NCBI RefSeq assembly: GCF_022179545.1
Contig: NZ_AP025518.1
Span: forward strand, 992,001-1,056,000
DNA length: 64,000 bases
DNA from: Mycolicibacterium fortuitum subsp. fortuitum
GTDB lineage: Bacteria; Actinomycetota; Actinomycetes; Mycobacteriales; Mycobacteriaceae
Reading direction: 5' to 3'
The notes under the pieces were generated by a model that searched no databases, was not told the origin of the DNA, and saw only the letters and a list, made by a program, of their open reading frames with translations. Position numbers and translations under genes: made by a program. Shown here piece after piece: positions 10,201-59,496 of this stretch. Every line of letters begins with the position of its first letter. Positions within the stretch are counted from its first letter, which is position 1.

Positions 10201-13200
10201 CGCCTGGAGCTGGGCGAGATCGAGAACACCCTGCTGGCCTGCCCGCAGGTGAATCGGGCTGCCGCCGCGGTATTCCACACGGACGCGGCGGACCACTTGG
10301 TCGCGTATGTCGCACTAGAGCGGGCCAGCAATGCTGACCACGATGCGGAAGTCGTCGATCAGTGGCAGCACGTCTACGACGAGCTCTACGATGCCGACCT
10401 CGACGCGGTGGAATTCGGAAGCGATTTCCGCGGCTGGAACAGCAGCTACACCGGTGATCCGATTCCGCTGGATCAGATGGAGGAGTGGCGCTCTGCGGCG
10501 GTGAACCGGATCCTGGCACTGCGACCACAGCGAGTACTGGAGCTAGGCGTCGGCTCGGGCCTGGTACTTTCACAGATCGCTCCCAAGTGCGGGGAGTACT
10601 GGGGCACAGACTTTTCCGCGCCGACCATACGGACGCTCGAATCGGCAGTGGCCGGACAACCGTGGGGGGACCGGGTCCGGTTGCGGGTGCAGCCGGCGGA
10701 CGTGGTCGACGGGCTGCCTGCCGGGTACTTCGACACGATCATCATCAACTCGGTCATCCAGTACTTCCCGAATTCGGTGTACCTCACCGAGGTGATGGAC
10801 AACGCCATGGGTCTGTTGGCCCCTGGCGGAACGCTGTTCGTCGGCGACGTGCGCAATCACAGCCTGCAGGGCGCCTTCCAGACCGGTATCGCTTTGGCGC
10901 GCACCGGACCTGACACCGATACCGACGATCTCCGTCAGCGAGTTCAACGCGCAGTCCTCGGTGAGCCGGAGCTGCTGCTGGCCCCCGAGTTCTTCACGAC
11001 CTGGGCAGCTGAGAACCCGTCGGTGGGTGGGATAGGCATCCAGGTCAAACGTGGTGAAGCCGACAATGAGCTGACCCGTTACCGCTATGACGTCATCATC
11101 CACCGGTCAGCCGACGGAGTCCTCTCGCTCGAGGAGGCGCCCACGTGGGATTGGGCCGAGTGCGCAGGGCTGAGCGGACTGCACGCAGAGTTGGCGGCCC
11201 GGCGACCCGACACCGTGCGGGTCACCGCGATTCCGCGTGCCGGCGTGATGGCCGACGTGATCATCGAACAAGCCCTTGCTGCTGGGCGTTCGGTCACCGA
11301 TGCCTTGGCTGAGGCGGAGATTGCCGCCAACCCCGCCGACGCCGTCACACCCGAACTGCTGTACCGGCTCGGTGAGGATGCGGGATACCGGGTGGCGGTC
11401 ACGTGGGGACCTGAACCCGGTACCGTCGACGCGGTTTTCGTCGCCGGCACCGAGGACGGGGACGTTCCGGTACTGACCGACCTCTATCTGCCGCCGGCCG
11501 GTTCCCGCGAGCGCAGCACCTACGCCAACGATCCTGATACCAACAGCAAGGTCAGCGAGGTGCGCCAATGGTTGGCGGCTCGCTTGCCCGAATACATGGT
11601 GCCCAGCCAGATCGTGGTGCTCGACGAGTTCCCGCTGACTTCCTCTGGCAAGACGGACCGCAAGGCGCTTCCAGAACCGGTCTTCACCGCTGCCACGTTC
11701 CGGTCACCTCAGACGCCGACGGAGAAGACCGTCGCCGAGGTCTTCGCCGAGGTTCTGGGCCTGGATCAGGTCGGGCTCGACGACGATTTCTTTGCCCTCG
11801 GCGGGGATTCGCTCATCGCGATCCGCGTCAGCGCACGCCTTCAGTCTGCTCTCGGCAAGGACGTGCCGGTCCGCTACCTGTTCGATGCGCCGACAGTGGC
11901 ACGGCTGGCGGTCTGCCTGGACCGGCAACAGGGCGACGCGGCACGGCCCCCGCTGCAGGTGATGCCGCGTCCGCAGAGCATCCCCTTGTCGTACGCCCAG
12001 CAGCGGCTGTGGTTCTTCGACCAATTGAACGGCCCGTCACCGGTTTACAACCTGGCCGTGGGCTTGCGTCTGAGCGGCGATCTCGACACCGCCGCGCTCG
12101 GCCAGGCGCTGGTCGATGTGGTGGGTCGGCACGAGAGTCTGCGCACGCTGTTCACCCTCGCAGGTGAGGCACCCCAGCAGCTCGTGGTGCCGGCCGAAGA
12201 TGCCCGCATGAGCTGGGAAGTGGTGGATGCAGTCGGCTGGGCGGCGGACCGCCTGGCCGAAGCGGCCGGCGCAGTAGCGCGCCATTCGTTCGACCTGTCA
12301 ACGGAATTGCCGTTGAGGGCAACGCTGTTCCGGGTTGCAGACGACGAGCATGTTCTGGTTGCCGTGGTACACCACATTGCTGCCGATGGCTGGTCGGTAA
12401 CCCCGCTGGTGGCGGACCTCGGCGCCGCTTACGCCAGGCGGAGCGAGGGCGAGGCGCCCGATTGGTCACCGTTGCCCGTGCAGTACGTGGACTACACCCT
12501 CTGGCAGCGTTCGTATCTGGGAGATCTCGACGACCGCGACAGCCGCATCTGCGGACAACTGGCGTATTGGGAGAATGCGTTGGCCGGACTGCCGGAGCGG
12601 TTGGAGTTGCCGACGGACCGGCCGTACCCGCCGGTGGCCGACTACCGGGGCGCGAGCCTGATGGTTGATTGGCCGGCTGACCTGCAGCAGCGCATCGCCC
12701 GGCTGGCCCGTCAGCAGAACGCGACCAGTTTCATGGTGGTGCAAGCCGGGTTGGCGCTGTTGCTGTCGAAACTCGGCGCGACTTCGGATGTCGCGGTGGG
12801 TATTTCGATCGCCGGTCGTAATGATCCTGCGTTGGACGACCTGGTGGGATTCTTCGTCAACACGCTGGTGCTGCGGGTCGACTTCTCCGGAGACCCGACG
12901 ATCGGTGAGCTGCTCGAGCAGGTGAGACAACGAGGCCTGGCAGCCTTCGAGCACCAGGACGTGCCGTTCGAGCTTGTGGTGGACCGGCTCAACCCGACCC
13001 GAAGCTTGACCCATCACCCGTTGGTGCAGGTCATGCTGTCGTGGCAGAACCTGGCCTGGCAGCACAGCGCGGACACCGCAGGTGGTCTGACGCTGGGCGA
13101 CGTGCGGGTGACGCCGTTGCCCGCTCAGACCCACACTGCACGTACGGATCTGACATTTGCGTTGGGAGAACGCTGGACTGAGACCGGCGAGCCTGCCGGG

Positions 13201-13320
13201 ATTGGAGGGACTGTGGAATTTCGCACCGACGTTTATGACGAGGCCACTGTTGTGCGGTTGATCGATCGGTTGCGAAAAGTCTTGGTGGCGATGACGGCCG
13301 AGGTGGAGGCCTCATCGTGA
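1..13320 (+). CDS. Giant non-ribosomal peptide synthetase NRPS1, 5' end outside window
   Basis: Multimodular peptide synthetase; the frame is open from base 1, so at least 4439 residues are seen and the start is missing. Domain order read from motifs: partial N-methyltransferase (MT) and A-domain end with T; C-A-T; C-A-T; C-A-MT-T; terminal C. Each T shows the LGGDSL phosphopantetheine site. Each C domain shows the SYAQQRLWF start and an HHxxxDG centre. The A domains show YTSGTTGxPKG or [21 protein letters not shown] and the NGK or SSGK lysine. No epimerisation domain is present. The protein ends directly after a C domain, and the stop overlaps the NRPS2 start in a GTGA. Two A domains are encoded by a perfect 1410-base repeat. 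It belongs to the same type of locus as mycobacterial mps genes but is not a simple match, so no symbol is given. The product and full module count are unknown. Confidence 0.95.
1255..4400 (+). other. NRPS1 module C-A-T, code DFWSMAGVYK
   Basis: C domain about 1258-2590 with the HHIAADG centre at 1660. The A domain, about 2640-4140, lies mostly in the perfect repeat. T domain around 4264-4281. The ten specificity positions aligned by eye to GrsA read D-F-W-S-M-A-G-V-Y-K. I do not recognise a firm substrate for this code. Confidence 0.8.
2593..4002. repeat. Perfect 1410-base intragenic repeat, copy 1
   Basis: By eye this segment is identical to 5752-7161, at a constant offset of 3159 bases. 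Translations in other frames on both strands are also identical, which supports identity at the base level. It covers the C-A linker and the A-domain core. Third positions are richer in T than in the flanking C-domain sequence. Confidence 0.92.
4432..7560 (+). other. NRPS1 module C-A-T, same code DFWSMAGVYK
   Basis: C domain about 4435-5750 with HHIAADG near 4831; A domain about 5790-7300; T domain near 7423-7440. The A domain is identical over its core to that of the previous module, so two identical residues in a row are expected in the product. Confidence 0.8.
5752..7161. repeat. Perfect 1410-base intragenic repeat, copy 2
   Basis: Second copy of 2593-4002. Similarity continues with a few differences into the T domain (to about 7436), while the surrounding C domains differ. 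This suggests a recent A-T replacement or gene conversion and not duplication of a whole module. Confidence 0.92.
7591..11930 (+). other. NRPS1 module C-A-MT-T, aliphatic-type code with N-methylation
   Basis: C domain about 7591-8900 (centre HHIAFDG). The A domain begins near 8990 and differs clearly from the others (FTSGSTG in place of YTSGTTG). Its code reads about D-A-F-L-V-G-A-I-W-K, which suggests an aliphatic residue. A methyltransferase is inserted after the [10 protein letters not shown] region, about 10345-11500, with the SAM-binding motif VLELGVGSG near 10540 and LLAPGGTLF near 10820. The A-domain end and T follow. An N-methyl aliphatic residue is predicted. Confidence 0.8.
11974..13317 (+). 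other. NRPS1 terminal condensation domain without partner A domain
   Basis: Complete C domain with the [10 protein letters not shown] start near 11990 and HHIAADG near 12371. The protein ends about where the C-A linker starts, so the amino-acid acceptor for this C domain must sit on another protein. NRPS2 and NRPS3 both start with A-T and could supply it. Confidence 0.85.
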
Positions 13321-15195
13321 CTGCCGACCTGAGCCGGCGGTTGTCGTCGATGGATTTCCTCGATGAAGACGAGCACGTCCAGCTCTACGCATGGGGCAAT
13401 CGCGCGGTACTGAACGAGCCGGTGACGGCGTCGGCGTCGATTCCTCGGTTGTTCGCAGTCCAGGTGGCTCGGGCGCCTGAGGCGGTGGCGGTGGTCTTCG
13501 ATGGCCGCTCGATGACCTATGCCGAGCTCGACGAGGCGTCGAACCGGCTGGCGCAGACGTTGATCGGTCGCGGAGTGGGCCCGGGTAAGCGAGTGGCGTT
13601 GCTCTTTCCCCGTTCCATCGAGGCCATCGTTTCCATTGTCGCGGTATTGAAGGCAGGTGCGGCGTATCTGCCGATCGATCCGATGCATCCCGATGCACGT
13701 ATTCAGTTCATGCTCGCCGATGCCGAACCCGCTGTGGCAATCACGACAACCGCGTTGACGGGCCGTTTCGCGGAGTGTGATCTGGAAGTCCTCGATTTCG
13801 ACGAGGTACGCGAGCACGACGGGCAGAGGCGGGAATTTCCCACACCGGCGGATGACGATGTCGCGTATCTGATCTACACGTCGGGGACGACGGGGCGTCC
13901 GAAGGGTGTGGCGATCACCCACCGTAATGTGGTCCGGCTGCTGGAGACGCTGGATGCGGAGTTGGGCCTGGCGGGTCAGGTGTGGACGCAGTGTCATTCG
14001 TTGGCGTTCGACTATTCGGTGTGGGAAATCTGGGGCGCGCTGCTGTTCGGTGGCCGGTTGGTCGTGGTGCCGGAGACGGTGACGCAGGCACCAGAGGACT
14101 TGTACGCCCTGCTGGTTGCCGAGCAGGTCACCATGTTCAGCCAGACGCCGTCGGCGTTCTATGCGTTGCAGGCTGTGGATGCATTGCAGCCCGGGCCAGG
14201 CGGTCAGTTGAAGCTGGAGACGGTGGTCTTCGGCGGGGAAGCTCTTGAGCCGCAGCGGCTTCGAGGCTGGTTGGATCGTCATCCGGGTTCGCCGCGGTTG
14301 ATCAACATGTACGGCATCACGGAGACGACGGTGCACGCGTCGTTCCGGGAGATCGTCGCCGGTGATGTCGAGGGCAGTGTCAGTCCGATCGGTGTGCCGT
14401 TGGCTCATCTCGGGTTCTTTGTGCTGGATTCGTCGTTGCAGCCGGTGCCGGTCGGTGTGGTCGGTGAGCTGTATGTGGTCGGCGCGGGTTTGGGGTGCGG
14501 CTATTGGCGCCGTGGTGGACTGAGTGCGACGAGGTTTGTGGCGTGCCCGTTCGGTGGGGCCGGTGCGCGGATGTATCGGACCGGCGATCTGGCGTCGTGG
14601 GGTGCCGATGGCCAGTTGCGGTATGGCGGGCGTGCTGATGAGCAGGTCAAGATTCGTGGCTATCGGATCGAGTTGGGGGAGATACAGACCGCTTTGGCGG
14701 AGGCCGACGGGGTGGGCCAGGCGGCGGTGATCGCCCGGGAGGATCGTCCCGGCGATAAACGCCTGGTCGGCTACATCACCGGCAGCGCAGACCCGCTCGA
14801 GGTCCGTGCGGCCCTGTCGGAGCGCTTGCCCGGTTACATGGTGCCGGCCGCGATCGTGGTGCTGGACAGTTTGCCGTTGACGGTGAACGGCAAGCTCGAC
14901 CGCCGAGCGTTGCCTGCGCCGGAGTACGTCGACGTCGATCGCTACCGGGCCCCCAGCACACCGAACGAGGAAATCCTCGTCGGGATTTATTCGCAGGTGT
15001 TGGGTCTGGAACGGGTCGGGGTCGATGACTCATTCTTCGACCTCGGTGGGGATTCGCTGTCGGCGGCGCGGTTGATCAATGCGATCAATGCCAGTTTGGA
15101 CGCTGATCTGGCGGTGCGGGCGGTATTCGAGACCCCTACTGCGGCCGAGCTTGCCGCCCGGGTGGGTGAGAGTGCGGGTGGGCGTGAACCGTTGG
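13317..15195 (+). other. NRPS2 module 1: A-T, threonine-like code
   Basis: A domain with [11 protein letters not shown] near 13876, code D-Y-W-S-V-G-M-V-H-K, then T with the acceptor serine codon at 15054-15056. There is no C domain in this protein; the terminal C of NRPS1 is the likely partner. Confidence 0.8.
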
Positions 15196-18100
15196 TCGCC
15201 CAGCAGCGCCCAGAGGTCATTCCGCTGTCCTACGCCCAGCAGCGGCTGTGGTTCCTCGACCAGCTGGAGGGACCATCACCGATCTACAACATGGCGGTCG
15301 CACTGCAGATCACCGGACAGCTGAACACGGACGCGCTCGGTGCGGCGCTGGCCGACGTGGTGGAACGCCATGAGTCTCTGCGCACGGTGTTCCGGTCGTC
15401 CGAGGGCGTTCCGGAGCAGGTGGTGATACCCGCCCAGGATGCCGATTGCGGTTGGCGAGTGATCGACGCCGGCGGATGGTCGACGACCGAATTGCGCGAG
15501 GCCATCGGCGAGATGGCCGGCCATGCCTTCGATCTGGGCAGCGAGATACCGTTACGGGCGGCGCTTTTGCGGTTGAACGACGACGCGCATGTTCTGGTGG
15601 CCGTGGTGCACCACATCGCTGCCGACGGCTGGTCCGTGGCCCCGCTGGTCGCCGATCTGCAATCGGCGTACGCCGGCCGGTCTGCGGGACGCGCGCCGGG
15701 CTGGGCTCCGTTGCCGGTGCAGTATGTGGACTACACCCTGTGGCAGCGCGCGCAGCTGGGCGACCTGGCCGACACCGACAGCCACATCTCGGGTCAGGTG
15801 GCGTATTGGGAGCAGGCGCTGGCCGGGCTGCCCGAACGTCTGGAACTCCCCACCGACCGTCCCTACCCGCCGGTTGCTGATCACCGCGGTGCCAGCATGC
15901 CGGTGTCATTGCCGGCCGAATTGCACAGGGCGCTGCGTGAAGTGGCGCGCGAACACAACGCCACGACGTACATGGTGCTTCAGACCGCGTTGACGATGTT
16001 GTTGTCGAAGCTCAGTGCGAGCCGTGATGTGGCGGTCGGAGTTCCGATCGCGGGTCGTGGCGATGCGGCGCTGGATCAGCTGGTGGGATTCTTCGTCAAC
16101 ACCCTGGTGCTGCGGGTGGACCTGGCCGGCGACCCGACTGTTGCCGAGCTGCTGGCCCAGGTGCGCAAGCGCAGCCTGGCCACGCTCGAGCACCAGGATG
16201 TGCCGTTCGAAGTACTTGTGGATCGGCTCAAGCCGACCCGGTCACTGGCCCATCACCCGCTGGTCCAGGTGGCGCTGGCCTGGCAGAACTTCACCACCGA
16301 CACCCCGACCGAAGCCACTCTGGGTGAGGCACAGGTCAGCCCACTGCCGGTGGACACCCAGGTGGCCCGAATGGACCTCACGTTCTCGTTGGCGGAGCGG
16401 TGGGACGACGCCGGCAACCCCGCAGGGATCAGCGGCACGGTGGAGTTCCGAACCGACGTGTTCGACGCGGCCAGCATCCAGACCATGATCGAGAGGCTGG
16501 CGCGGGTCGCCGAGGCGTTGATCGAAGATCCGGCCCGGCGGTTGTCGTCGGTCGATGTGCTGGATGCCGTCGAGCATGGCCGTCTCGACGATGTGGGTAA
16601 CCGGGCTGTGCTGGCCGAGTCCCCGGTGCCTGCGCTGTCGATCCCGCGGCTGTTCGCTGCTCAGGTGGCTCGCGCGCCTGAGGCGGTGGCGGTGAGTTTC
16701 GATGGTCACTCGATGACCTATCGCGAGCTCGACGAGGCGTCGAACCGGCTGGCGCACTGGCTGGTTGGCTTCGGCGCGGGCCCGGGTGAATGTGTGGCGG
16801 TGTTGGTGCCACGATCGGTCGAGGCGATCGTCGCGATTCTGGGCGCGTTGAAGTCGGGGGCGGCATATGTGCCGGTCGATCCGATGCATCCTGATACCCG
16901 GATCCAGTTCATGCTCGGCGATGCGGCCCCGATTGTCGCGGTGACCACCGCCGCATTGCGCATGCGGCTGGAAGGTATCGACCTGACAGTCGTCGACGTC
17001 GCCGATGCGGCGATCGATGCGCAACCCAGTACCGCACTGCGGGGGCCGGTTTCAGATGACGTCGCGTATCTGATCTACACCTCAGGGACGACGGGCGTTC
17101 CCAAGGGTGTGGCGATCAGCCACGGCAACGTGGCTCGGTTGCTGGGCACCTTGGATACCGAGTTGGGCCTGGCGGGTCAGGTGTGGACGCAGTGTCATTC
17201 GTTGGCGTTCGACTATTCGGTGTGGGAGATCTGGGGTGCGCTGCTGTTCGGCGGCCGCCTGGTGGTGGTGTCAGAGTCGGTGACTCGATCCCCGGAGGAC
17301 CTGCTGAGCTTGCTTGTCGCCGAGCAGGTGACGGTGCTGAGCCAGACGCCGTCGGCGTTCTATGCCTTGCAGTCGGCTGACGCGTTGCAACCCGAACTGG
17401 GCCGTCAGTTGAAGTTGGAGACGGTCGTCTTCGGCGGAGAAGCCCTTGAACCACAACGCCTTCGACCCTGGTTCGAGGGACATTCAGGTTCCACCCGGTT
17501 GATCAACATGTATGGCATCACGGAGACGACGGTGCACGCGTCGTTCCGGGAGATCATGGCCAGTGACGTCGAGGGCAGCGCGAGCCCGATCGGTGTGCCG
17601 TTGGACCACCTCGGGTTCTTCGTCCTGGATTCATCGCTGCAACCGGTGCCGGTTGGTGTGACGGGTGAGTTGTACGTCGTCGGAGCCGGGCTGGGATTCG
17701 GTTACTGGCGTCGCGGTGGACTGAGCGCGACGAGATTCGTGGCGTGCCCGTTCGGCGGGACAGGGACCCGGATGTATCGGACCGGCGATCTCGCCTCGTG
17801 GGGCCCTGACGGCCAGTTGCGCTATCTGGGACGTGCTGATGAGCAGGTCAAGATTCGCGGGTACCGCATCGAGCTGGGCGAAATCCAATCTGCCCTGGAA
17901 GATCTGGACGGGGTGAGACAAGCCGAGGTCATAGCCCGAGAAGACCGCCCCGGCGACAAACGCCTGGTGGGCTACATCACCGGCAGCGCGGACCCGGTCG
18001 CGGTTCGTGCGGCATTGTCGGAGCGGTTGCCCGGTTATATGGTGCCCGCGGCGGTGGTGGTGCTCGACGCCTTGCCCTTGACGGTGAACGGCAAACTCGA

Positions 18101-21100
18101 CAAACGCGCTCTGCCTGCCCCCGACTATGCCAACGGTCAGGAATACCGCGCTCCGGCGACTCCCGTGGAGGAACTGCTGGCCGGCATCTATGCGCAGGTG
18201 CTCGGTCTGGAACGGGTCGGGGCAGATGATTCCTTCTTCGACCTGGGCGGCGACTCGCTCTCGGCGATGCGGTTGATCAACGCGGTCAATGCCAGTTTGG
18301 ATACCGATCTGGCAGTGCGGACAGTGTTCGAGGCGCCCACGGTGGCACAGCTTGCGTCACATGCACATCAGAGTTCGGGGCGGCGTGAACCGCTGGTGGC
18401 CCGACAACGCCCCGAAGCCCTGCCGCTGTCGTATGCCCAGCAGCGACTGTGGTTCCTCGACCAGCTCGAGGGACCGTCACCGATCTACAACATGCCGACC
18501 GCATACCGGATCACCGGCGGGCTTGATGTCGATGCCCTCGGTGCGGCACTGGTGGATGTGGTCGAGCGCCACGAGTCTCTGCGCACGGTGTTCCCGGCGG
18601 TCGACGGTGTGCCCAGACAGGTCGTGGTGCCTGCGGAGCAGGCCGATCCGGGGTGGCAGGTCGTCGACGCGGAGGACTGGTCGGCGGATCGACTCCACGA
18701 CGCGATTCGCGAGACCGTCGGATACAACTTTGATCTGTCCGCGGAGATCCCGTTGAGGGCAACCCTTTTCCGGATGGGCGAGGGTGAGCATGTGCTGGTC
18801 GCAGTGGTCCATCACATTGCCGGTGATGGCTGGTCGATCGGTCCGCTCGTGCGTGACATCGGGATCGCCTACGCCAACCGGTGTGCGGGACAGGCGCCGG
18901 ACTGGGCGCCGCTGCCGGTGCAATACGCGGATTACACGCTGTGGCAGCGCTCGTATCTCGGTGATCCGACCGATCCGGACAGCCGGATTTCTGGTCAGCT
19001 GGCGTACTGGGAGCATGCGCTGGCCGGGCTGCCCGAGCGTCTGGAGCTGCCCACCGACCGGCCGTATCCGCCGGTGGCCGACTACCACGGCGCCAGTCTC
19101 ACGATGGAGTGGCCGGTCGAGTTACAGCAGCAGATCGCGCGGGTAGCCAGTGAGCACAACGCCACCAGCTTCATGGTGGTACAGGCCGCCCTGGCCGTGT
19201 TGTTGTCGACTCTCAGCGGGAATTCGGATGTTGCAGTGGGGTTCCCGATCGCGGGGCGTAGCGATCCGGCATTGGATGAGCTGGTCGGCGTCTTCATCAA
19301 CACCCTGGTGCTACGAGTCGAGCTCGACGGCGATCCGTCCGTCGCTGAGCTGCTGGCCCAGGTGCGGCGACGCAGTCTGGCTGCCTACGAGCACCAGGAT
19401 GTGCCCTTCGAGATGGTTGTCGACCGGCTCAACCCGGCGCGCAGTTTGACCCACCACCCGCTGGTCCAGGTGATGATGGCGTGGCAGAACCTGGCCGCGC
19501 AGAACGACGATCACACGGCGTCGACGAGTTTGGGCGGGCTGCAGGCCACCCCGCTGGAAGCAGACACTCAGACCGCACGCATGGATCTGATGATCTCGCT
19601 GGCCGAACGCTGGAGTGCCGGCGAGCCTGCGGGCATCACCGGGGCCGTGGAGTACCGCACCGATGTGTTCGATGCCTCCACCATCCAGAGCTTTGTCGAG
19701 CGGCTCACCCGCGCGGTCGAAGCCCTGACAGCTGATCCTTCAGCGACGTTGTCGTCTGTGAACCTGCTCGCGGCAGGCGACCATGCCCGCCTCGACGGAT
19801 GGGGCAATCGGGCGGTGCTTTCCGAGTCGGTGGCCGCCAAGTCGATTCCGGCCGTGTTCGCCGAACAGGTGGCACGGGACCCGGCCGCCGTGGCCGTGGT
19901 GTGCGGTGAGAGTTCATGGACATATCGGGAGCTCGACGAGGCGTCGAATCGCTTGGCGCACTTGCTCGTCGGCCAGGGTGCTGGATCGGGCGAATGTGTG
20001 GCGTTGCTGCTCAACCATTCGGCAGAGGCGATCGTCGCGATCCTGGCGGTGCTGAAGTCAGGGGCAGCCTATCTGCCCATCGATCCGATGGTGCCGGACG
20101 CACGGGTCGAGTTCATGCTGGCCGACGCCGGCCCGGTCGCGGCGGTCACCACCGCTGCGTTGCGGACACGGCTGGATGGGTGCGACCTGACCGTCATCGA
20201 CATCGCTGACGCGCGGATCGAGACGCAACCCAGCACGGCATTGCCAGGCCCGGCTGCCGATGACCTCGCCTACCTGATCTACACCTCGGGAACCACCGGC
20301 GTTCCGAAGGGCGTGGCGATCACTCACCAGAATGTGACGCAGTTCCTCGGCGCCGTGGATCCGTCCCTGGTCGGACCGGGAACCGTTTGGTCGCAGTGGC
20401 ATTCACTGGTGTTCGACGTCTCTGTGTGGGACATCTTCTGCGCCCTGCTGCACGGCGGCCGGTTGGTGGTGGTGCCGGAGGAGGTGGCTCGTTCGCCGCA
20501 GGATCTGCATGACCTGCTGGTGAGCGAGAAGGTCAGCGTCTTGAGCCAGACACCGTCGGCGGCGGGGATGCTCTCGCCGGACGGCCTGGAATCCACCACG
20601 TTGGTGGTTGCCGGAGAAGCCTGTCCGACCGAGTTGGTACAACGGTGGGCGCCGGGTCGGGTGCTGATCAACGCCTATGGGCCGACCGAAGCCACGGTGT
20701 ATGCCACGATCAGTGCGCCGTTGAAAGCCGAACCGGCGGCGCCCAACATCGTTCCGATCGGTTCGCCGGCACCCGGGGCCGCACTGTTCGTCCTTGATCG
20801 CCGGCTGCGGCAAGTGCCTCCTGGTGTCGTTGGCGAGTTGTATGTGGCGGGCCGCGGCGTCGGAGTGGGGTACGTCGGTCGGTCCGGATTGACCGCATCT
20901 CGTTTCGTCGCCTGCCCATTCGGCGGCGCGGGCGCGCGGATGTACCGGACCGGCGATCTGGTGCGCTGGGGCAGTGACGGACAGATGCAGTATCTCGGCC
21001 GCGCCGACGAGCAGGTGAAGATCCGCGGCTACCGGATCGAACTCGGCGAAATCCAAGTCGCGCTGGCTGACCTGGACGGTGTGGAACAGGCTGTCGTCGT

Positions 21101-24100
21101 CGCCCGCGAGGACCACCCCGGCGAGAAGCGACTCGTCGGCTACGTGACCGAGACGGCGCCCGGCTTGATCGACTCCGGTAAGGCGCGAGCCCAGCTGGCT
21201 GAGCACCTTCCGGCGTACATGGTTCCTGCCGCCGTGATGGTGGTCGAGGCAATACCGTTGACTGTCAACGGCAAACTGGACAGACGCGCGCTGCCGGCAC
21301 CGGAATACGTCGATGCCCACAGCTATCGTGCCCCGACCAACCCGACCGAGGAGATCCTCGCGGGCATCTTCGCTCAAGTATTGGGTTTGGACCGGGTCGG
21401 AGTCGACGACTCGTTCTTCGATCTCGGCGGTGACTCCCTGTCAGCCATACGGTTGATCAATGCCGTCAACACCGCGTTCGACAGTGATCTGGCAGTCCGC
21501 GCGGTATTCGACGCACCGGCTGTGGCGCAGCTCGAATCGCGAATCGCGGCGGGTTCAGGCGGACGGACGCCGTTGGCCCCCATGCCTCGGCCTGCTGTGG
21601 TGCCGTTGTCATACGCCCAGCAGCGACTGTGGTTCCTGGACCAGCTGCACGGTCCGTCCCCGATTTACAACATGCCGATGATGTACCGGGTCACCGGATT
21701 GGACGTCGATGCGCTCCGCCTGGCCCTGGCCGATGTGGCAGCCCGGCACGAGAGTCTGCGTACCGTCTTCCCCGAGGTGGACGGTGTGCCCCGGCAGCTG
21801 GTCCTCCCTGCCGACCAGGCGGATTTCGGGTGCCAGGAGGTGGACGCTGCGGATTGGCCGGTCGACCAGTTGGCGAGTGCCATCGATGCAGCAGTACGGC
21901 ACCCCTTCGATCTGAACAACGAGATCCCGATCTGGGCAAGGCTTTTCCGCGTATCCGAAGATGAGCATGTGCTGGTTGCGGTGGTGCACCACATCGCCGG
22001 GGACGCTTGGTCGTTCGCACCGCTGGCCCGTGATGTGGCCGTCGCCTACGCCGCGCGCTGTGGCGGCCAGGCGCCGCAGTGGTCCTCGCTGCCGGTGCAG
22101 TACGTTGACTACACATTGTGGCAGCGGGAGCAGCTCGGTGACCTCTCCGACCCCGAGAGCCGGATCTCGGGGCAACTGGCTTACTGGCAGGACGCGCTCG
22201 CGGGCCTGCCTGACCGCCTCGAGTTGCCGACGGACCGCCCGTACCCGGCGGTCGCCGATCACCGCGGGGCTGTCGTCGAAGTGGAGTGGCCGGCGGAATT
22301 GCAGCAGCGGGTGGCCGCGGTTGCGAGGGAGCACAATGCGACCAGCTTCATGGTGGTGCAGGCTGCGCTGGCCGTGCTGTTGTCGAGTTTGAGTGCAAGT
22401 TCCGATGTGGCGGTGGGTTTCCCGATTGCAGGGCGCAATGATCCCGCCTTGAATGATCTGGTCGGGTTCTTCGTGAACACCTTGGTGCTGCGAGTCGACC
22501 TGGCCGACGACCCCACCGTAGGTGAGCTGCTGGGGCAGGTGCGTCAGCGCAGTTTGGCCGCGTACGAGCATCAGGACGTGCCGTTCGAGGTGTTGGTGGA
22601 CCGGCTCAACCCGAGCCGTAGCCTGAGCTATCACCCATTGATCCAGGTGATGTTGGCCTGGCAGAACCCTGCGAATGCAACCGGTTCCGAGCCGGTGGCG
22701 GGAGATGTGCACGCTGCGGCGCAGATGGCCGAAACCCATACCGCCCGTATGGATCTGGTCTTTGCTCTCGGAGAAAGGTACGACGCCGAGGACGCTTGGG
22801 CCGGGATCGGCGGGTCGGTGGAATTTCGCACTGACGTGTTCGACGCCGGCACAATCGAGGTGATCGTCGGGCGGTTGGAGCGGATTCTGGCGGCCATGAC
22901 GGCCGATCCGGCGCAGCGCTTGTCGTCCATCGATGTGTTGGACACCGACGAGCGTGCTCGCCTCGATGAGCTCGGGAACCGGGCCGCGTTGACCGCACCG
23001 GCTAGGGTGGCGGCCTCGATTCCGGAGGTGTTCGCCCAGCAAGTGGCTCGGGTGCCGGATGCCCCGGCCGTGACCTTCGACGGCAGGTCCATTTCGTATC
23101 GAGAACTCGACGAAGCCTCGAATCGGTTGGCGCACCTCCTTGCCGGCCACGGTGCCGGGCCCGGTGAGTGTGTGGCGTTGGTGCTGAATCGTTCGGTTGA
23201 CGCGATTGTGGCGATTCTGGCGGTGTTGAAGACAGGGGCGGCGTATCTGCCGTTGGATCCGGCGTATCCGGATGCACGGATCGCCGTGGTGGTCGGCGAT
23301 GCCCGACCGGTGGCCGCGGTGACGGCAGGTGCGTTGGCGGGGCGGCTGGACCAGCTGGGTGTGTCCGTTGTCGACGTGGCGGACCGGCGGATCGCCATGC
23401 AACCGAGCAGCGCATTGTCAATGCCGGCTGCCGATGATGTGGCGTACGTGATCTACACGTCGGGCACGACGGGGGTGCCGAAGGGAGTGGTCGTCCCGCA
23501 CAGCAATGTCACCGGGTTGCTGACGTCGTTGGATGTGGGGTTGCCGACCGCGGGGGTGTGGTCGCAGTGGCACTCGTATGCCTTTGACGTGTCGGTGTGG
23601 GAGATCTTCGGTGCGCTGTTGAGCGGTGGCCGGTTGGTGGTGGTGCCTGATGCGCTGGTGGGTTCACCAGATGAGTTGCACGACTTGCTGGTTGCAGAGC
23701 AAGTGACGGTGCTGAACCAGACGCCGTCGGCAGCTGCGGCGCTGTCGTCGGAGAGTCTGGAGTCTGCGGCGTTGGTGGTGGCCGGTGAGGCGTGCCCGGC
23801 CGAGTTGGTGGATCGGTGGGCACTGGGCCGGTTGATGATCAACGGTTACGGCCCGACGGAGACGTGGTACACGTCGTTCAGTGCCCCGTTGGTGGCAGGG
23901 TCGGGTGTGGTGCCGATCGGAAGGCCGGTGCCGGGTGCGGCGTTCTTCGTGTTGGACCGGTGGTTGCGTCCGGTGCCCGCCGGTGTGGTCGGGGAATTGT
24001 ATGTGGCCGGGGCCGGCCTGGCCGCCGGGTACCAGCGTCGGGGTGGGTTGACGGGGTCGCGATTCGTCGCGTGTCCGTTCGCAGCGGGGCAGCGGATGTA

Positions 24101-25565
24101 TCGCACCGGGGATCTGGTGCGTTGGGGTGCCGACGGTCAGTTGCAATATCTGGGCCGGGCTGATGAGCAGGTAAAGATCCGCGGGTATCGCATCGAGTTG
24201 GGTGACGTGCGAGCGGTGCTGGCCGGTCTGGAGGGGGTGGATCAGGCGGCCGTCATCGCTCGAGAAGATCGCCCCGGCGACAAGCGGCTGTTCGGATACA
24301 TCACCGGTAAGGCAGACCCGGCCGAAATCCGGGCTGCGATGGCGGCACGGTTACCGGCCTATATGGTGCCTGCGGCGGTGATGGCGGTCGACAGTTTGCC
24401 GTTGACGGTGAACGGGAAGTTGGATCGTCGCGCACTCCCGGTGCCGGAGTATGTAGATGCTCGGCGTTACCGTGCCCCGGAAACGCTCACCGAGGAGATT
24501 CTGGCCGGTATCTACGCCGAAGTCCTCGGCCTGGAGAGGGTCGGGGTCGACGATTCGTTTTTCAACCTCGGAGGGGACTCGCTGTCGGCGATGCGGGTGA
24601 TCGCCGCCGCCAACTCCAGCCTCGGCGCCGAGTTGGCGGTGCGAGTCATGTTCGATGCGCCGACGGTGCGTGGTTTGGCCCAGCAAGTGGGTCGTGCCGA
24701 GAGTTCGCGGGAAGTGGTCCCGGTCGAGGTGCTCAAGCAGGGCAACGGCGTGCCGTTGTGTTGCGTGCACGACGGATTCGGGTTGAGTTGGTCGTACCGG
24801 GCGTTGGGCCAGTACGTGGAGGGCCCGATCGTCGGAATCAACCGGGCGCCGGCCGATGGCGAATCCGAGGCACAGTCGATCCACGCCATGGCGGAAAGCT
24901 ACGCTGACCGGCTTCAGAAGCTGTATCCCGTTGGGCCATACCGGATTCTGGGCTGGTCGTTTGGTGGAGTGGTGGCTCATGCGTTGGCCGTTGAGCTTCA
25001 GCGGCGTGGGTGTGAGGTTCAGCGTCTGGTGCTGCTCGATGGCTTGCTGAACCCGAACAGGTTCTGGAAACGCATCACCCGCAGGATTGCGAAGAATCGG
25101 GCGGTGGCCGAAGGGTGGGTTCTGGATTACATCCTGCGGACCAACAAGGTCCGGGTGCCCGTGCATTTCGGGTTGCTGTCCTATTCGCGGGTGGCCGACA
25201 TCATTGCCCGGCACGGGGCCAGTCCGCCGTCGCGACAGTTGGTGAAATTCATGGCCCGCAGCGTGAGTGCGGGGCAGTTGTTCCTTCTCGATCATCAGCC
25301 TGAAGTTTTTGACGGTGATGTCGTGATGTTCTCAGCGGCCCGACCTCGATGCGAGGAGACCGACGGGAACGGGCTCATGCCGAGGGTGGCGCGTCTGCGT
25401 AACCGCAGGGCAGCCGGAGCACTGCTGCACAGTTGGCGCCCTTACGTTTCCGGGAAGATCACGGTGCTACCGGTTGGCTGCACCCACTTCGAGATGTTCA
25501 CCCCCGAAGCATTGAGTGAATACGTCGAACAGCTGAAGTCTGTCCTGGAAAGTGATTCGGAATAG
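13317..25565 (+). CDS. Four-module non-ribosomal peptide synthetase with thioesterase, NRPS2
   Basis: 4082-residue peptide synthetase. It starts with GTG at 13317, overlapping the NRPS1 stop in GTGA, so translation is probably coupled. Order: A-T, C-A-T, C-A-T, C-A-T, TE. The first residues (RRLSS, FLDEDEH) are the normal C-A linker sequence, so the module is split between the two proteins exactly at the linker. A domains 1 and 2 read D-Y-W-S-V-G-M-V-H-K, close to the threonine code DFWNIGMVHK. A3 reads about D-V-W-S-V-A-A-V-Y-K and A4 about D-V-W-N-V-A-G-W-Y-K; these are unassigned. Odd points: the third C domain has HHIAGDA in place of HHxxxDG, and A4 is one residue short just after YGPTET. 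The TE carries GWSFGG with Ser3881. It probably continues the chain of NRPS1 and releases the product. Confidence 0.95.
15205..18375 (+). other. NRPS2 module 2: C-A-T, threonine-like code
   Basis: C domain with HHIAADG at 15609, A domain with the same threonine-like code as module 1, T around 18241-18262. Confidence 0.8.
18412..21560 (+). other. NRPS2 module 3: C-A-T, code DVWSVAAVYK
   Basis: C domain with HHIAGDG near 18808, A domain core about 19840-21300, T near 21421-21445. The substrate is not assigned. The same code occurs in NRPS3 module 2. Confidence 0.75.
21592..24690 (+). other. NRPS2 module 4: C-A-T with variant motifs
   Basis: The C domain centre near 21987 reads HHIAGDA, with alanine where glycine is usual. 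The A domain at about 23010-24450 has a shortened A5 region, [12 protein letters not shown] in place of the longer TTVYATIS pattern. The T domain reads FFNLGGDSL near 24561. Function is probably retained, since both histidines, the aspartate and the carrier serine are present. Confidence 0.75.
24718..25562 (+). other. NRPS2 C-terminal thioesterase
   Basis: Type I thioesterase with the conserved [14 protein letters not shown] opening and a GWSFGG nucleophile elbow; the serine codon is at 24957-24959. The C-terminal CTHFEMF region supplies the likely catalytic histidine. It would release the peptide by hydrolysis, cyclisation or transfer; the sequence does not say which. Confidence 0.85.
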
Positions 25566-25637
25566 ATCGGAATAGATGCGTGACGATGCTATTGCGCACC
25601 AGCGTTGAGCGGCTGACGTGGGGACGGTGATCGCCAA

Positions 25638-27029
25638 ATGGGTACCACTTACGAGCACGAGGCGCGCGAATCCAACACGGATACAGTTCTGAAAACAAGC
25701 AACGTCCTCGACGTACTCGACCAGCGCACGTTCGATCTCGGGTTGGCGATCGGCGTCAACAGTCTCCTGCAGAGCGCCTGGATATATGACCGCCCGGTCG
25801 ATATCGAAGGCCTTCGCCAGTTCCACGACCACCTTCGGCGGGGACGGCTGTCCCGCGGCATCGAGCGTTCACCGCTGCCCTTCGGTCGGCACCGCTGGGT
25901 GGCGTCGGACAATACGTCCGAGCTGGAGATCGTCGAGACACCCAGGCCTCGTGAAGAGTTCGATGACTGGCTCGGCGAGCAGATCAACACTCCGCTCGAT
26001 TGTGAGCGCGGACCCGGCTGGCATCTCGCAATGCTCCCGTTCACCGACGGCGGCTCAGGTGTGAGCTTGGTCGTCTCACATTGCCTCATCGACGGAGTCG
26101 GTCTCTGTGAGGCGCTGGCTGATGCCGCACTCGGCCGCGACGATCCGATCAGCTGGCCTGCTGCCGAAACGCGCGGTCGCTGGCGAGCTGTGAGCCAGGA
26201 CGCCTGGCAAACCGTGCGCGACATCCCCGCCATGGCGCGGGGTGTTGTCGCGGCGATTCGGCTGGCTCGGCGCAGTCGGGAAGGGGCAACGGCCCCGGCC
26301 ACTTCGACGATCACCACCTCACCTGCGCCGGCCGCCCTTTCTGACGAATCGATACCGGTCCCGATGGCGACGATCCTCGTCGATGCGGACGAATGGGATT
26401 CTCGCGCAGAGGCGCTCGGGGGGACCAGTAACACCCTTCTTGTGGGATTGGCGGCTCGGCTGGCCCATCGCGCAGGACGTGTCGGCGCAGACGGGTCGGT
26501 GATGGTCATGATGCCGGTCAACCAGCGCGCCGACGGAGACACCCGTGCCAACGCGCGAAGCAGTGTCGCCGTCACGGTGGATCCCGCACTGGCGACCACG
26601 GATCTGCGGGAGATCCGGGCTGCTGTCAAAGAAACGCTGATCCGTCACGGGCAGGTGCCTGATGAGGAACACGCGGTGAATGCCATCATCCCCCTGCTGC
26701 CGAAGCGGTTCCTCGGAGCCACATCGCGTGTCGGTTCACCCAACCAAGTCGGTTCATCGAACCTCGGTGTGGTCAACCCGGCCGCCACCCGGGCCGATGG
26801 TACGGAGGCCGACCACTTCGCCGTGAAGGTTCTCCCGTACCTGGGATTGACTGAGGCGATGCTCCGCCGGTTCGGCGGGACCCAGTCATTTCTGTCCGGG
26901 AGAGCGAACGGGCGAGTGTTCGTTTCGGCGCATTCATACCTCCCGGGTGGAACCAACTCGAACGAGCGCCTGCAACAGAACCTTTCGAATGCGCTGAATG
27001 ACTTCTCCCTTACCGGAACACTTTTCTGA
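25638..27029 (+). CDS. Condensation-superfamily acyltransferase (WS/DGAT- or PapA-like), copy 1
   Basis: 463-residue protein of the chloramphenicol-acetyltransferase/condensation fold. It carries the catalytic pattern SHxxxDG (His148, Asp152, Gly153) and a later GLAARLAHRAG-MMPVNQR region typical of WS/DGAT- and PapA-type acyltransferases. It lies 72 bases after NRPS2 and just before an ICMT-like gene, in the same direction. It therefore probably acylates the peptide product of this locus, perhaps on a threonine or sugar hydroxyl; that role is inference. A close homologue occurs at 41825-43231 on the other strand. The ATG start at 25638 has only a weak ribosome site (GGGACGG). The donor is unknown, and a noncatalytic or docking role cannot be excluded. 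Confidence 0.8.
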   Translation: MGTTYEHEARESNTDTVLKTSNVLDVLDQRTFDLGLAIGVNSLLQSAWIYDRPVDIEGLRQFHDHLRRGRLSRGIERSPLPFGRHRWVASDNTSELEIVETPRPREEFDDWLGEQINTPLDCERGPGWHLAMLPFTDGGSGVSLVVSHCLIDGVGLCEALADAALGRDDPISWPAAETRGRWRAVSQDAWQTVRDIPAMARGVVAAIRLARRSREGATAPATSTITTSPAPAALSDESIPVPMATILVDADEWDSRAEALGGTSNTLLVGLAARLAHRAGRVGADGSVMVMMPVNQRADGDTRANARSSVAVTVDPALATTDLREIRAAVKETLIRHGQVPDEEHAVNAIIPLLPKRFLGATSRVGSPNQVGSSNLGVVNPAATRADGTEADHFAVKVLPYLGLTEAMLRRFGGTQSFLSGRANGRVFVSAHSYLPGGTNSNERLQQNLSNALNDFSLTGTLF

Positions 27030-27057
27030 ACACTGGATCAACTTTCAGGAGGATGGC

Positions 27058-27732
27058 ATGAGCACCGATCTTCGGGTGGCGATTCAATCCGTACTCGGCC
27101 TGGTTGCGTTGGGAGCGCTGCTGTTCATACCGGCGGGGACGCTCGACTACTGGCAGGCGTGGGTCTTCCTGTCGGTGTACGCGGTACTGGCAATCGCCTC
27201 CACCGTCTACCTGTTGAGGAAAGACAAGGCGATCGTCGAGCGGCGCATGCGGGTCGGGCAGAAGGCCGAATCGCGACCGGTGCAAAAGGTCGTGGTGCTC
27301 GTCATCGTGAACCTGTCCATCGCCCTGCCGGTGTTCTGTGCGCTCGACCACCGCTTCGGCTGGTCTCCGGTGCCCACCGCGGTATCCCTGATCGGTAACG
27401 CGATGTTCGCCGTCGGCCTTGGCATCACGATGTTCACCATGCTCCAGAACAGTTATGCGTCGGCCAACATCACCGTGGAGTCGGAGCAGAAACTGGTCTC
27501 CACCGGGCTCTACGGGCTTGTGCGACACCCCATGTACATGGGCGCCTTGATCATGGTCGCGGGGATGCCTCTGGCCCTCGGATCATGGTGGGGCCTGGCC
27601 GTTCTCATTCCCGTGTTGGCCCTTTACGCCTTCCGTATCCACGATGAGGAAGAGCTGCTCGGACAGCAACTCGCGGGTTACGGCGAGTACATGCAGAAGG
27701 TGCACTATCGACTGGTGCCGCTCGTTTGGTGA
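27058..27732 (+). CDS. ICMT-like integral membrane methyltransferase, copy 1
   Basis: 224-residue membrane protein with about five hydrophobic segments. The C-terminal signature GLYGLVRHPMY (RHPMY at residues 156-160), followed by an acidic HDEEEL, is typical of isoprenylcysteine carboxyl methyltransferase and PEMT-like SAM-dependent enzymes. The ATG at 27058 was chosen because a perfect AGGAGG lies at 27047-27052, five bases upstream. A longer in-frame ATG at 26998 would lie inside the preceding gene. It is the last gene of the NRPS2 block and is followed by a stem-loop terminator. It probably O-methylates a product of the locus, for example a carboxylate or hydroxyl; substrate unknown. A paralogue follows NRPS3. 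Confidence 0.85.
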   Translation: MSTDLRVAIQSVLGLVALGALLFIPAGTLDYWQAWVFLSVYAVLAIASTVYLLRKDKAIVERRMRVGQKAESRPVQKVVVLVIVNLSIALPVFCALDHRFGWSPVPTAVSLIGNAMFAVGLGITMFTMLQNSYASANITVESEQKLVSTGLYGLVRHPMYMGALIMVAGMPLALGSWWGLAVLIPVLALYAFRIHDEEELLGQQLAGYGEYMQKVHYRLVPLVW

Positions 27733-27784
27733 CGATGAAGCTGATCGTCACGGCGGCTGCATCTTCCTAGACCGCCAACTGTTG

Positions 27785-27830
27785 AGGACTACCGCACCGA
27801 ACTGAGTCCAGACGGTGCGGTAGTCCTTTG
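27785..27830 (+). terminator. Stem-loop terminator after the NRPS2 block
   Basis: A perfect 15-base stem (27785-27799 with 27813-27827) around a 13-base loop, followed by CTTTG. It lies 53 bases after the ICMT-like stop. The U-tract is short, as is usual in mycobacteria. Confidence 0.8.
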
Positions 27831-28735
27831 TCTATGGCCGGTCGGATGCAGACCCATTGGCAGAATCCGCTCTCCAGCCGGCGACAGGATCCCGGTGACC
27901 GCCGTGCATCCGCACCGGCGGTGCGTTGTCGTTCGCCTGCGCTTTTCGCAAGATCTTGAAAATTCGCTACTGATTGCAATCGCAAACTAATGAACTTTGA
28001 ATCGCGGCCGAATGCCCACTCGTTCCGGGGGTGCGTCACCAAGTCGCTCTTCGTCGCCGCGCGCGCGGGAAGGTCGTGCTGAACAATATTTGCTGAAATT
28101 GCAAATACCTTGCGCTCTCGACGTCTGTCATCTCTTGTCGACGGAGTGAGGTCGGCTGATTTCGGGTAGCGGTGCAGTCGACTTCGCTGAAGTGAACTAC
28201 ATCGGCGTCATGCACAAACCTGTGGTCGGCGGTCTTTCTGGGGAGCTTTCGAGCGCGGACATGCAGATCAGAGTGCCGTGACGGTCTTGGAGGTGGCGAC
28301 AACGGTCCACGTTCCAGTCGGCGCGAGCCGTTGGGGTGACCCGCGGGGGCGTCAGTCCTCATGCTGTCTGAGTTTGCCATCGGCATTTGCTGAACTTGAT
28401 TGGTTCGTCAACGACGGTGCGACACCGTCAGGTTGCGGTCGGCTCACATTCCTGGATTCACAATTTCTACGTCCACTCGACGCCGACTGGATATGCTGAT
28501 TTTCTGCAATTACTGAATCCATAGCTGGAGTAGGCCACAGGAAACAAGATCGCATTGGGCAGGGCGCGGGGCGGGATTGTCCCTGCTTCCGGATACCCGA
28601 ACGTTTTCACTGGTCGACTCGACGATGGGGGGCCGGGTGAACGTTGACCAACAACGCTGCCTGTCGGCGACCGCCGCCGAGATCCCCGTAGGCCGGGCAA
28701 CCGGTCGCAGGAGGCCACGCGGGTGGGAGATTCCA
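27831..28735. other. Intergenic region before NRPS3, no convincing gene
   Basis: About 900 bases with lower GC than the flanks and no ORF with credible codon use on either strand. It holds a small inverted repeat at 28087-28107 and presumably the promoter of NRPS3. I could not fix a promoter by eye. Confidence 0.5.
28087..28107. promoter_or_regulatory. AT-rich inverted repeat, possible operator
   Basis: Seven-base arms TATTTGC and GCAAATA around a seven-base spacer, in the gap upstream of NRPS3. It could be a binding site for a regulator; chance occurrence is possible. Confidence 0.3.
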
Positions 28736-28861
28736 ATGAAGATCGATGAACAGTCACTGCCTGCCGTACGCGTGCAGCTCGACGAGTACTCGGCCAAGAG
28801 CCGCCTCCGCACCGCCTCGTCGGTGTGCGTCCCCAAGACACTGCGGGAGGCGTTGTCGTGA
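28736..28861 (+). CDS. Possible 41-codon ORF overlapping the NRPS3 start
   Basis: ATG at 28736 with GGGAGA at 28725-28730, five bases upstream. It ends in TGA at 28859-28861, which overlaps the NRPS3 GTG in the same GTGA arrangement as NRPS1/NRPS2. The frame can be extended to 28577. The 41-residue product is basic and polar and resembles nothing I know. It may be a real leader that couples translation to NRPS3, or a leftover of the upstream gene from which the NRPS3 cassette was copied. Coding status is uncertain. Confidence 0.35.
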
Positions 28862-30715
28862 CTGCAAACTTGACGCGACGATTGTCGTCGATCGACTTTC
28901 TGGATGAGGATGAGCACGCTGAGCTGTTCGACTGGGGCAACCGGGCTGTTCTGACCAACGCGGCGCGCGTGTCGGCTCCTGTGACGGAGTTGTTCGCGGC
29001 CCAGGCAACCCGTTCACGGGATGCGGTGGCGGTTGCATTCGATGGCCGGCAGATGTCGTATGGCGAACTCGATGAATTGTCGAATCGTCTGGCCCACCAT
29101 CTGGTTGGCCTTGGCGCTGGGCCGGGTCAGCGTGTCGCGGTGCTCTTGCCCAGATCGGCTGATTCCGTTGTGGCGATTCTGGCGGTGTTGAAGTCGGGGG
29201 CGGCGTATCTGCCGATCGATCCGCTGCATCCTGATGCGCGCATTCGGTTCATGCTCGCCGATGCTGAACCGACCGTAGCGGTGACGACTACGGAATTGGC
29301 TGGTCGCTTGGACGGTTGCGATATCCACGTCGTCGATTTCGCCGAGTTACGTCAGCACAACGAACAGAGTGCAAGCTTGCCTGTGCCGTCGGCTGATGAT
29401 GTGGCGTATTTGATCTATACGTCGGGGACGACGGGGCGTCCGAAGGGTGTGGCGGTTACGCATTCCAATGTGGTTCGGCTGTTGGAGACGTTGGATGCGG
29501 AGTTGGGTCTGGCGGGGCAGGTGTGGACGCAGTGTCATTCGTTGGCGTTTGACTATTCGGTGTGGGAGATCTGGGGTGCGTTGTTGTTCGGTGGCCGGTT
29601 GGTGGTGGTGCCGGAGGCGGTGACGCGGGCTCCAGAAGAGCTGCTGGCCTTGCTGGTCACCGAGCAGGTAACTGTGTTGAGTCAGACACCGTCGGCGTTC
29701 TACGCACTGCAGTCTGTTGATTCCCTGCTGCCCGCGGCAGGCCGCCAGCTGAAGGTGGAGACGGTGGTGTTCGGCGGGGAAGCTCTTGAGCCGCAGCGTC
29801 TTCAGCCGTGGATGGACAGCCATTCGGATTCGCCGCGGTTGATCAACATGTATGGCATCACCGAGACGACGGTGCATGCCTCGTTCCGGGAGATCGGTGC
29901 TGAGGATGCTCAGGGCAGTGACAGCCCGATCGGTGTGCCGCTGGCGCACTTGGGCTTCTTTGTGCTGGATGCGTCGCTGCATCCTGCGCCGGTCGGTGTG
30001 GTGGGTGAGCTGTATGTGACCGGTGGTGGGCTGGCATGTGGGTATTGGCATCGCGGCGGATTGACCGCGTCGCGGTTTGTCGCCTGTCCGTTCGGCGGTG
30101 CGGGTGCGCGCATGTATCGGACCGGTGATCTGGCGTCCTGGGGTTCCGATGGGCAGCTGCGGTATGCAGGTCGCGCTGATGAGCAGGTCAAGATCCGCGG
30201 ATATCGCATCGAACTGGGGGAAATCCGGTCTGCGCTTGCGGAACTGGACGGAGTGAGACAAGCCGAGGTCATAGCGCGCGAGGATCATCCAGGCGACAAA
30301 CGTCTCGTGGGGTATGTGACCGGTGTGGTGGATGCCGGGGTTGTGCGTGCTGCGTTGTCGGCGCGGTTGCCTGGTTATATGGTGCCGGCTGCGATCGTGG
30401 TGCTGGACAGTTTGCCGTTGACGGTGAACGGCAAGCTGGACAAGCGTGCGTTGCCGGCTCCGGATTATGCCGAGGGGCAGCGGTATCGTGCTCCGGTCAG
30501 TGCTGTGGAGGAGGTACTGGCCGGGATCTATGCCCAGGTGTTGGGTTTGGATCGCGTGGGGGTCGACGATTCGTTCTTCGACCTGGGCGGCGACTCGCTC
30601 TCGGCGACCCGCTTGATCAACACGATCAACAGTGACCTGGATTCTGATCTCGCGGTTCGTGCGGTGTTCGAGGCGCCGACGGTCGCGGAGCTGGCGATGC
30701 GTGTCGCTGAGAGTT
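28858..30715 (+). other. NRPS3 module 1: A-T, threonine-like code
   Basis: A domain with [11 protein letters not shown] near 29416 and code D-Y-W-S-V-G-M-V-H-K; T around 30581-30600. No C domain precedes it. Confidence 0.8.
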
Positions 30716-41103: not shown

Positions 41104-41142
41104 CACAGCCGGTCCAACTCTCGCGTCGACCCAGGAGGGGTG

Positions 41143-52500: not shown

Positions 52501-52857
52501 CCGTTGCTGCGGATCGAGTGCGGCGCTTTCTCGTTCGTTGATGCCGAAGAACTCGGCGTCGAACCCCGCGACGTCGTCGAGGAATGCGCCCCACTTCGAC
52601 ACCGACCTGCCGGGCACCCCTGGTTCGGGGTCGTAGTATTCGTCGGCGTCCCACCGGTCCGACGGAACCTCGGTGACGAGGTCGTCGCCTCGGATCAGTG
52701 CCTCCCAGAGGCGTTCGGGGGAGTCGATGCCGCCGGGGAGCCGGCAGGACATTCCGATGACGGCCACCGGCGTGACGGGAGTGGACGGCGTGTGGGTCGC
52801 ATTGGTACCGGCGCCCGCTCCCGGAAAATCCCCGCCCGCGATTTCGAATGCATTCAA
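46528..52857 (-). CDS. Highly reducing type I polyketide synthase (KS-AT-DH-ER-KR-ACP)
   Basis: 2109 residues with a full reducing set, as in mycobacterial Mas-like and GPL-locus PKSs. KS: DTACSS with Cys200, His335 and His371. AT: GHSLGE with Ser642 and the VAFHS motif near 743-747, which points to malonyl-CoA and not methylmalonyl-CoA. DH: His948 and Asp1113. ER: NADPH motif HSATGGVGQ near residue 1570. [11 protein letters not shown] near 1775. ACP: YGMDSLG near 2065. The start is TTG at 52857 with GGGAGGAG upstream; the only nearby ATG is in another frame. It is divergent from the FAAL gene, the likely supplier of its starter acyl-AMP. It probably makes a straight long acyl chain for the lipopeptide. 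It has no TE, so the chain must be handed over. Confidence 0.95.
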
Positions 52858-59494: not shown

Positions 59495-59496
59495 CC

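Follow-up and report, generated by a model that had tools for sequence, protein, structure and literature searches.

The window analysed here is a stretch of 64,000 nucleotides (C1:992001-1056000) of the 6.4 Mb, one-contig genome of Mycolicibacterium fortuitum subsp. fortuitum, referred to as G000, and positions are those of the window unless stated otherwise. Three NRPS genes lie on its forward strand. The first, NRPS1, begins 6.3 kb 5′ of the window, where it is preceded by an mbtH gene, and extends from -6284 (genome C1:985717) to 13320, with 1..13320 as the part inside the window. Its domains were ordered as C-A-T, C-A-MT-T, C-A-T, C-A-T, C-A-MT-T and then a lone C, giving 5 A, 6 C and 2 N-methyltransferase (MT) domains, the latter in modules 2 and 5. 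The last T motif was found at 11797 and the last C motif (HHIAADG) at 12370, and the frame runs on to its stop at 13320 with no A domain. NRPS1 does end in a C domain that no A domain follows, as a sequence-only reading of this DNA had proposed.

NRPS2 (13317..25565, forward) overlaps the NRPS1 stop by 4 bases and NRPS3 (28858..41103, forward) follows further downstream; both show the order A-T C-A-T C-A-T C-A-T-TE, with an A domain first and, per protein, four A domains, three C domains and one TE. For NRPS3, the GTG at 28858 is the most likely start, while the longest frame would give 28825. The same reading had placed both starts at one point of the C-A linker and had given each tail a TE of its own; the two leaders share 24 of 31 positions, and the motif GWSFGG was detected in both TEs. 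The locus holds 12 of the 32 Condensation matches of the genome, and the A domains served number 13, so that NRPS2 and NRPS3, both A-first, have one C domain between them. The C motifs of NRPS1-3 all read HHxxxDG, except the third C of NRPS2 (HHIAGDA). The latter, at 20-25 kb of the window, is kept in all eight genomes compared and sits before a module with an odd Pro-like code.

Downstream of NRPS2, AT1 (25638..27029, forward) encodes a WS/DGAT-type acyltransferase (Pfam PF03007 at 25.5 bits, cut-off 23.6), a candidate Thr O-acyltransferase, and MTm1 (26998..27732, forward) a membrane methyltransferase of the PEMT/ICMT kind, the candidate maker of a C-terminal methyl ester. NRPS3 lies 1.1 kb beyond MTm1 and is followed by a second PEMT/ICMT-type methyltransferase, MTm2 (41140..41808, forward), a paralogue of MTm1, and by AT2 (41825..43231, reverse), a paralogue of AT1 (62% over 450 residues) which by itself falls below the Pfam cut-off (21.5 versus 23.6). 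Further genes encode a type I PKS (KS-AT-DH-ER-KR-ACP; 46528..52857, reverse) as candidate source of the acyl chain, a FadD-type acyl-AMP ligase (53270..55006, forward) as candidate for chain activation, and two MmpL transporters (56603..62364, forward) as candidates for export. An Hsp90 gene of the HtpG type (43240-45195) is also found within the lipopeptide locus, and its position is kept in several relatives and outgroups.

A-domain codes and the comparison with fortuitine

Nine-position A codes were read with hand-set anchors on a MAFFT alignment. In NRPS1, modules 1, 3 and 4 share the code DFWSMAGVY, while modules 2 and 5, those with the N-methyltransferases, share DAFLVGAIW. NRPS2 carries DYWSVGMVH twice (Thr), then DVWSVAAVY and DVWNVAGWY, and NRPS3 carries Thr, DVWSVAAVY, Thr and DYWSMAGVY. 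The codes bear out the endings that had been suggested from the sequence, which for NRPS2 were Thr-Thr-X-X and for NRPS3 Thr-X-Thr-X. The NRPS2 code DYWSVGMVH is one letter off DFWSVGMVHK, a code placed in the Thr section of PMC12283262.

Fortuitine, a compound of M. fortuitum, is an "acylnonapeptide methyl ester" according to the title of Barber 1965. Read as one line, NRPS1 and NRPS2 supply nine consecutive modules; those numbered 2 and 5 carry the N-methylation, the codes of 1, 3 and 4 are equal, as are those of 2 and 5, and Thr codes stand at 6 and 7. The sequence of fortuitine is reportedly acyl-Val-MeLeu-Val-Val-MeLeu-AcThr-AcThr-Ala-Pro-OMe, with which this arrangement agrees in length, repeat pattern and methylation sites, and the candidate methyltransferase (MTm1) and acyltransferase (AT1) genes would fit the methyl ester and the O-acetyl groups. 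On the other hand, the code of module 9, which would be Pro, is non-standard, and the second tail (NRPS3) is without counterpart in a fortuitine of this sequence. Val, Leu, Ala and Pro were matched by no reference code at the NRPS1 and NRPS2 modules; it is the repeat pattern and the Thr codes that fit.

On these grounds, the NRPS2 branch very probably makes a fortuitine-type compound. NRPS1 would build an N-acylated pentapeptide X-NMeY-X-X-NMeY, and NRPS1 and NRPS2, together with AT1 and MTm1, would most likely yield a fortuitine-type acyl nonapeptide methyl ester. If so, genes would be assigned to fortuitine, for which no gene assignment was found in the literature searched (most subscription journals lie outside it).

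Distribution and origin of the second tail

The search for MTm1 took in 396 genomes of the genus, and the closest loci were compared. Among named records, M. peregrinum 852002-10433 came nearest in acyltransferase identity (92%). The whole locus was read in seven relatives (G124, G231, G239, G273, G297, G300 and G328) and, in part, in G337. NRPS2-AT1-MTm1 and a second A-first synthetase were identified in all seven, and NRPS1 was of full length in six; in G300 it was short and split, perhaps through the assembly of near-identical modules, and this genome was left out of the nine-module count. NRPS2 of G239 was split in two overlapping frames. With the NRPS3 TE as query, two TEs of this kind were returned in 9/9 close genomes. 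Across the genus, 92 of the 396 genomes gave a TE match within the limit chosen; copies per genome are lower bounds there (best six candidates each).

The predicted NRPS2 residues are identical in 8/8 genomes, and among the same eight there are four types of NRPS3 tail: Thr-Ala?-Thr-X in G000; Thr-Ala?-DFWTLGAVY-DFWSLGAVW in G124; DYWSMAGVY-Ala?-NMe(DIWGLGQMW)-DVWNVAGWY in G231, G239 and G273; and Thr-Thr-Thr followed by a DVWN-type code in G297, G300 and G328. The compared stretches held two AT-like genes in five genomes and four, five and six in G300, G328 and G297, respectively; the higher numbers occur with the all-Thr front and would be in keeping with an acyl group on every Thr, as a correlation in one subgroup. 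Four outgroup loci were also compared. NRPS1 has a single tail in G281, G119 and G280, and G252 has two tandem tails with different codes. Similar TEs occur in three further outgroups (G135, G021 and G193), whose loci lie outside the comparison. No such locus was found in the stretches compared from G264, G148, G005 and G237, nor was any such synthetase in those of M. colombiense and others (L078-L085), where related acyltransferases were present; L077 holds an NRPS of another build.

The 750 bases 5′ of NRPS3 were aligned locally with the 5′ region of NRPS1 of the same genome and compared with 100 dinucleotide shuffles. Relics of the NRPS1 5′ region were detected before NRPS3 in 8/8 genomes (scores 74, 301, 129, 263, 67, 144, 98 and 118 against best shuffles of 28-32), and in G124 and G273 the match included an mbtH copy. 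In G000, a relic of the NRPS1 promoter region lies at 28488..28631 on the forward strand (108/149 aligned positions; score 74 versus 30 for the best of 100 shuffles), and a relic of the NRPS1 start at 28723-28761 (33/39 bases). The latter opens a frame of 41 codons (28736..28861, forward) whose stop overlaps the NRPS3 GTG. As a conserved peptide this frame is unsupported; over three genomes the frame (41-42 codons) is near neutral (pN 0.184, pS 0.243), and chance alone would keep it open in 32% of shuffles.

A relic of the NRPS1 3′ end was found before NRPS3 in G239 (45 versus 29) and G273 (113 versus 25; 116/155, ending at the NRPS3 start) and was not recognisable there in the other six of the eight genomes, while the outgroup G252 had a 3′ relic only (56 versus 28). 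The relics indicate that NRPS3 once stood behind an NRPS1 of its own, and hence that NRPS1 is its ancestral partner. We suggest that a promoter-mbtH-NRPS1-NRPS2 unit was duplicated, that the NRPS1 copy was then deleted, and that NRPS3 afterwards traded A domains with NRPS1 and NRPS2.

On the tree of TEs, those of NRPS3 from six relatives group with TEs of NRPS2, and the one of G000 sits on a long branch together with the tails of the outgroups (100/99). On the tree of first A domains, the two tails of G252 are each other's closest partner (100/99), pointing to a separate fork or to gene conversion. In G231 and G328, A cores were identified that match another synthetase of their own genome at 97-100% identity. 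Within G000, NRPS1 A1, A3 and A4 (-4469 to 6295) are almost letter-identical and NRPS3 A1 and A3 are 99.5% identical, pointing to gene conversion between modules. Tentatively, and with a little less than an even chance, the constant front and NRPS2 tail would make the same fortuitine-type lipid throughout the group, while the second tail, rewritten by A domains swapped in from the neighbouring synthetases, would make a surface lipopeptide specific to species or subgroup, forking having happened more than once, separately in G252.

The proposed fork and known systems

It is probable that the three synthetases form a bifurcated line, at which the NRPS1 chain is finished by either NRPS2 or NRPS3. 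The free terminal C of NRPS1 would join the pentapeptide to the aminoacyl residue that the first T domain of one or the other carries, the split point lying inside one module, between C and A, with the same short linker on both tails. The second product, made by NRPS1 and NRPS3 with MTm2 and AT2, would then be a lipopeptide predicted as X-NMeY-X-X-NMeY-Thr-Ala?-Thr-X. Such a fork had been put forward in the sequence-only reading and is supported by the count of 12 C domains for 13 A domains, by the NRPS1 relics (8/8), by purifying selection on NRPS3 (dN/dS 0.15-0.19) and by the presence of the second tail in 9/9 genomes. Architecture, codes, relics, selection and distribution can be read off the DNA; what we infer from it is that the chain passes from NRPS1 to NRPS3, which amino acids are used, how the peptides are tailored and what the products are. 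Against the fork, no docking domain was seen, a second free C domain occurs in this genome and in most relatives, the NRPS3 TE is broken in G124, and the relic frame is near neutral. In addition, NRPS3 opens with an NRPS1-like instead of a Thr-like A domain in 3/8 genomes, and the lone C would thus need to take residues of two sorts. A lone C specific for Thr only is ruled out by these three codes.

For the wollamide/desotamide line of Streptomyces sp. MST-110588, Booth et al. 2022 (PMC9205934) proved that an NRPS line is bifurcated, with terminal genes that were duplicated and with recombination inside the genome. There, one upstream line is served by duplicated terminal NRPS genes (wolG1/wolG2) with differing A specificities; likewise, a single upstream line is followed here by two terminal synthetases that are homologous but differ in their A codes. 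Duplication of the terminal gene is found in both as well (here with 5′ relics in 8/8 genomes and 3′ relics in G239, G273 and G252), and the near-identical A cores at our locus may reflect a change by intragenomic recombination like that of the wollamide A domains (PMC9205934). The MbtH gene is duplicated in the wollamide line, here only in some relatives (G124, G273 and, weakly, G297). By anatomy, the locus would work like the wollamide line.

The two differ in where the line is divided. The wollamide terminal proteins attach through docking domains that follow a full module, and this was put to the test by engineering and biochemistry (PMC9205934), whereas our locus is split between the C and A of one module. 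It also holds relics of the lost upstream gene and shows four forms of second tail in eight genomes. The within-module split, the deleted-upstream-gene relics and the spread of second tails are thus what appears to differ from the proven Streptomyces fork. The earlier statement that no such mycobacterial locus is known stands for mycobacteria, as no forked mycobacterial NRPS was found in the literature searched (most subscription journals being outside it), and fails in general, given the Streptomyces case (PMC9205934).

If the fork is real, it would be a natural one inside a module, with C in one protein and A in the next. The four kinds of second tail in eight genomes, the single-tail outgroups and the lost-gene relics would together form an unusually complete record of forking and diversification, and the tails would offer studies of NRPS interfaces a series of C/A partners matched by nature.

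The glycopeptidolipid synthetases Mps1/Mps2 of mycobacteria have E domains that make D residues. Their lipopeptide locus resembles ours in its MbtH, PKS, FadD, MmpL pair and Sap genes. Unlike it, our locus has TE release, a longer peptide and two terminal synthetases, and no E domain was found in it, the 12 C-type matches being one per module step.

Other explanations of NRPS3

NRPS3 could instead be a separate tetrapeptide synthetase, its first A-T an ordinary loading module and only its ancestry common with the NRPS1 line. A-T loading modules are common in NRPSs, NRPS3 so built would need no C domain, an NRPS1 promoter copy of its own has left relics in front of it, and its first residue varies. 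The C-A linker, however, is under purifying selection even where the A core has been swapped. Over the first 18 residues from RRLSS, the NRPS2 and NRPS3 leaders are alike at 11-17 within each of the eight genomes, and over these genomes the leader pN/pS is 0.118/0.557. In G231, G239 and G273, the NRPS3 leader stays NRPS2-like (16, 13 and 11 of 18), while the closest own A domain to the first NRPS3 A core is one of NRPS1 (97, 87 and 92%, the first of these being NRPS1 A1 of G231). An NRPS2-like leader on a swapped A core fits selection for the lone-C interface, or merely the place of the breakpoint. Moreover, the relatives of NRPS3 in G281, G119 and G280 are the only tail and overlap the NRPS1 stop, and MTm2 and AT2 are paralogous to the tailoring genes of NRPS2. 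A separate synthetase is thus unlikely, and NRPS3 as a second tail of NRPS1 is preferred.

Rather less likely still is the reading of NRPS3 as a duplicate in decay that makes no product. In G124 its TE is interrupted by an insert encoding an ISL3-family transposase (L046:13879-15249), and therefore NRPS3 is dispensable there; relic DNA also surrounds it. Against decay, the frame is open over about 4,100-4,500 codons in 7/8 genomes with the catalytic motifs kept, and dN/dS, by simple counting, is 0.152-0.190 in six pairs, compared with 0.107-0.144 for NRPS2 in four pairs.

A free C domain elsewhere, which the earlier reading had named as a finding that would tell against the fork, does exist near 3.14 Mb, at the end of the first protein of a second NRPS locus (3.12-3.15 Mb), and it is directly followed by an A-first partner of its own that overlaps its stop. 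This locus is also split between C and A, so the split is not special in this genome. Among 13 genomes searched, the free C had a counterpart of at least 74% identity in 11 (in two pieces in G231) and none above 38% in G124 and G328, the latter with an intact NRPS3. Of the 19 Condensation matches of G328, twelve belong to NRPS1-3, a mycobactin-type cluster accounts for five, and small proteins for two. The sole terminal C-type domain of that cluster is weak (37.5 bits) and ends a 1493-residue protein, the second C of the MbtE-type protein has a T after it, and the two small C-like proteins are PapA5-like only weakly or have no NCBIfam match; NRPS1 is accordingly the best candidate donor for NRPS3 in G328. 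That NRPS3 is partnered by another free C, above all that of the second locus, is hence the least probable explanation and a very remote one: the shared C/A split speaks for it, while its own partner at the stop, the NRPS3 leader being nearer that of NRPS2 (24/31) than that of this partner (16/31), and the lack of a close counterpart in 2/9 genomes, G328 included (two small C-like proteins aside), speak against it and make it unlikely as a required partner.

The second NRPS pair (C1, about 3117-3152 kb; L011-L013) encodes proteins of 8178 and 2720 residues with E domains, divided between C and A like NRPS1 and NRPS2. Its last protein ends in C-T with neither A nor TE, and its product is likely another lipopeptide or a cyclic peptide.
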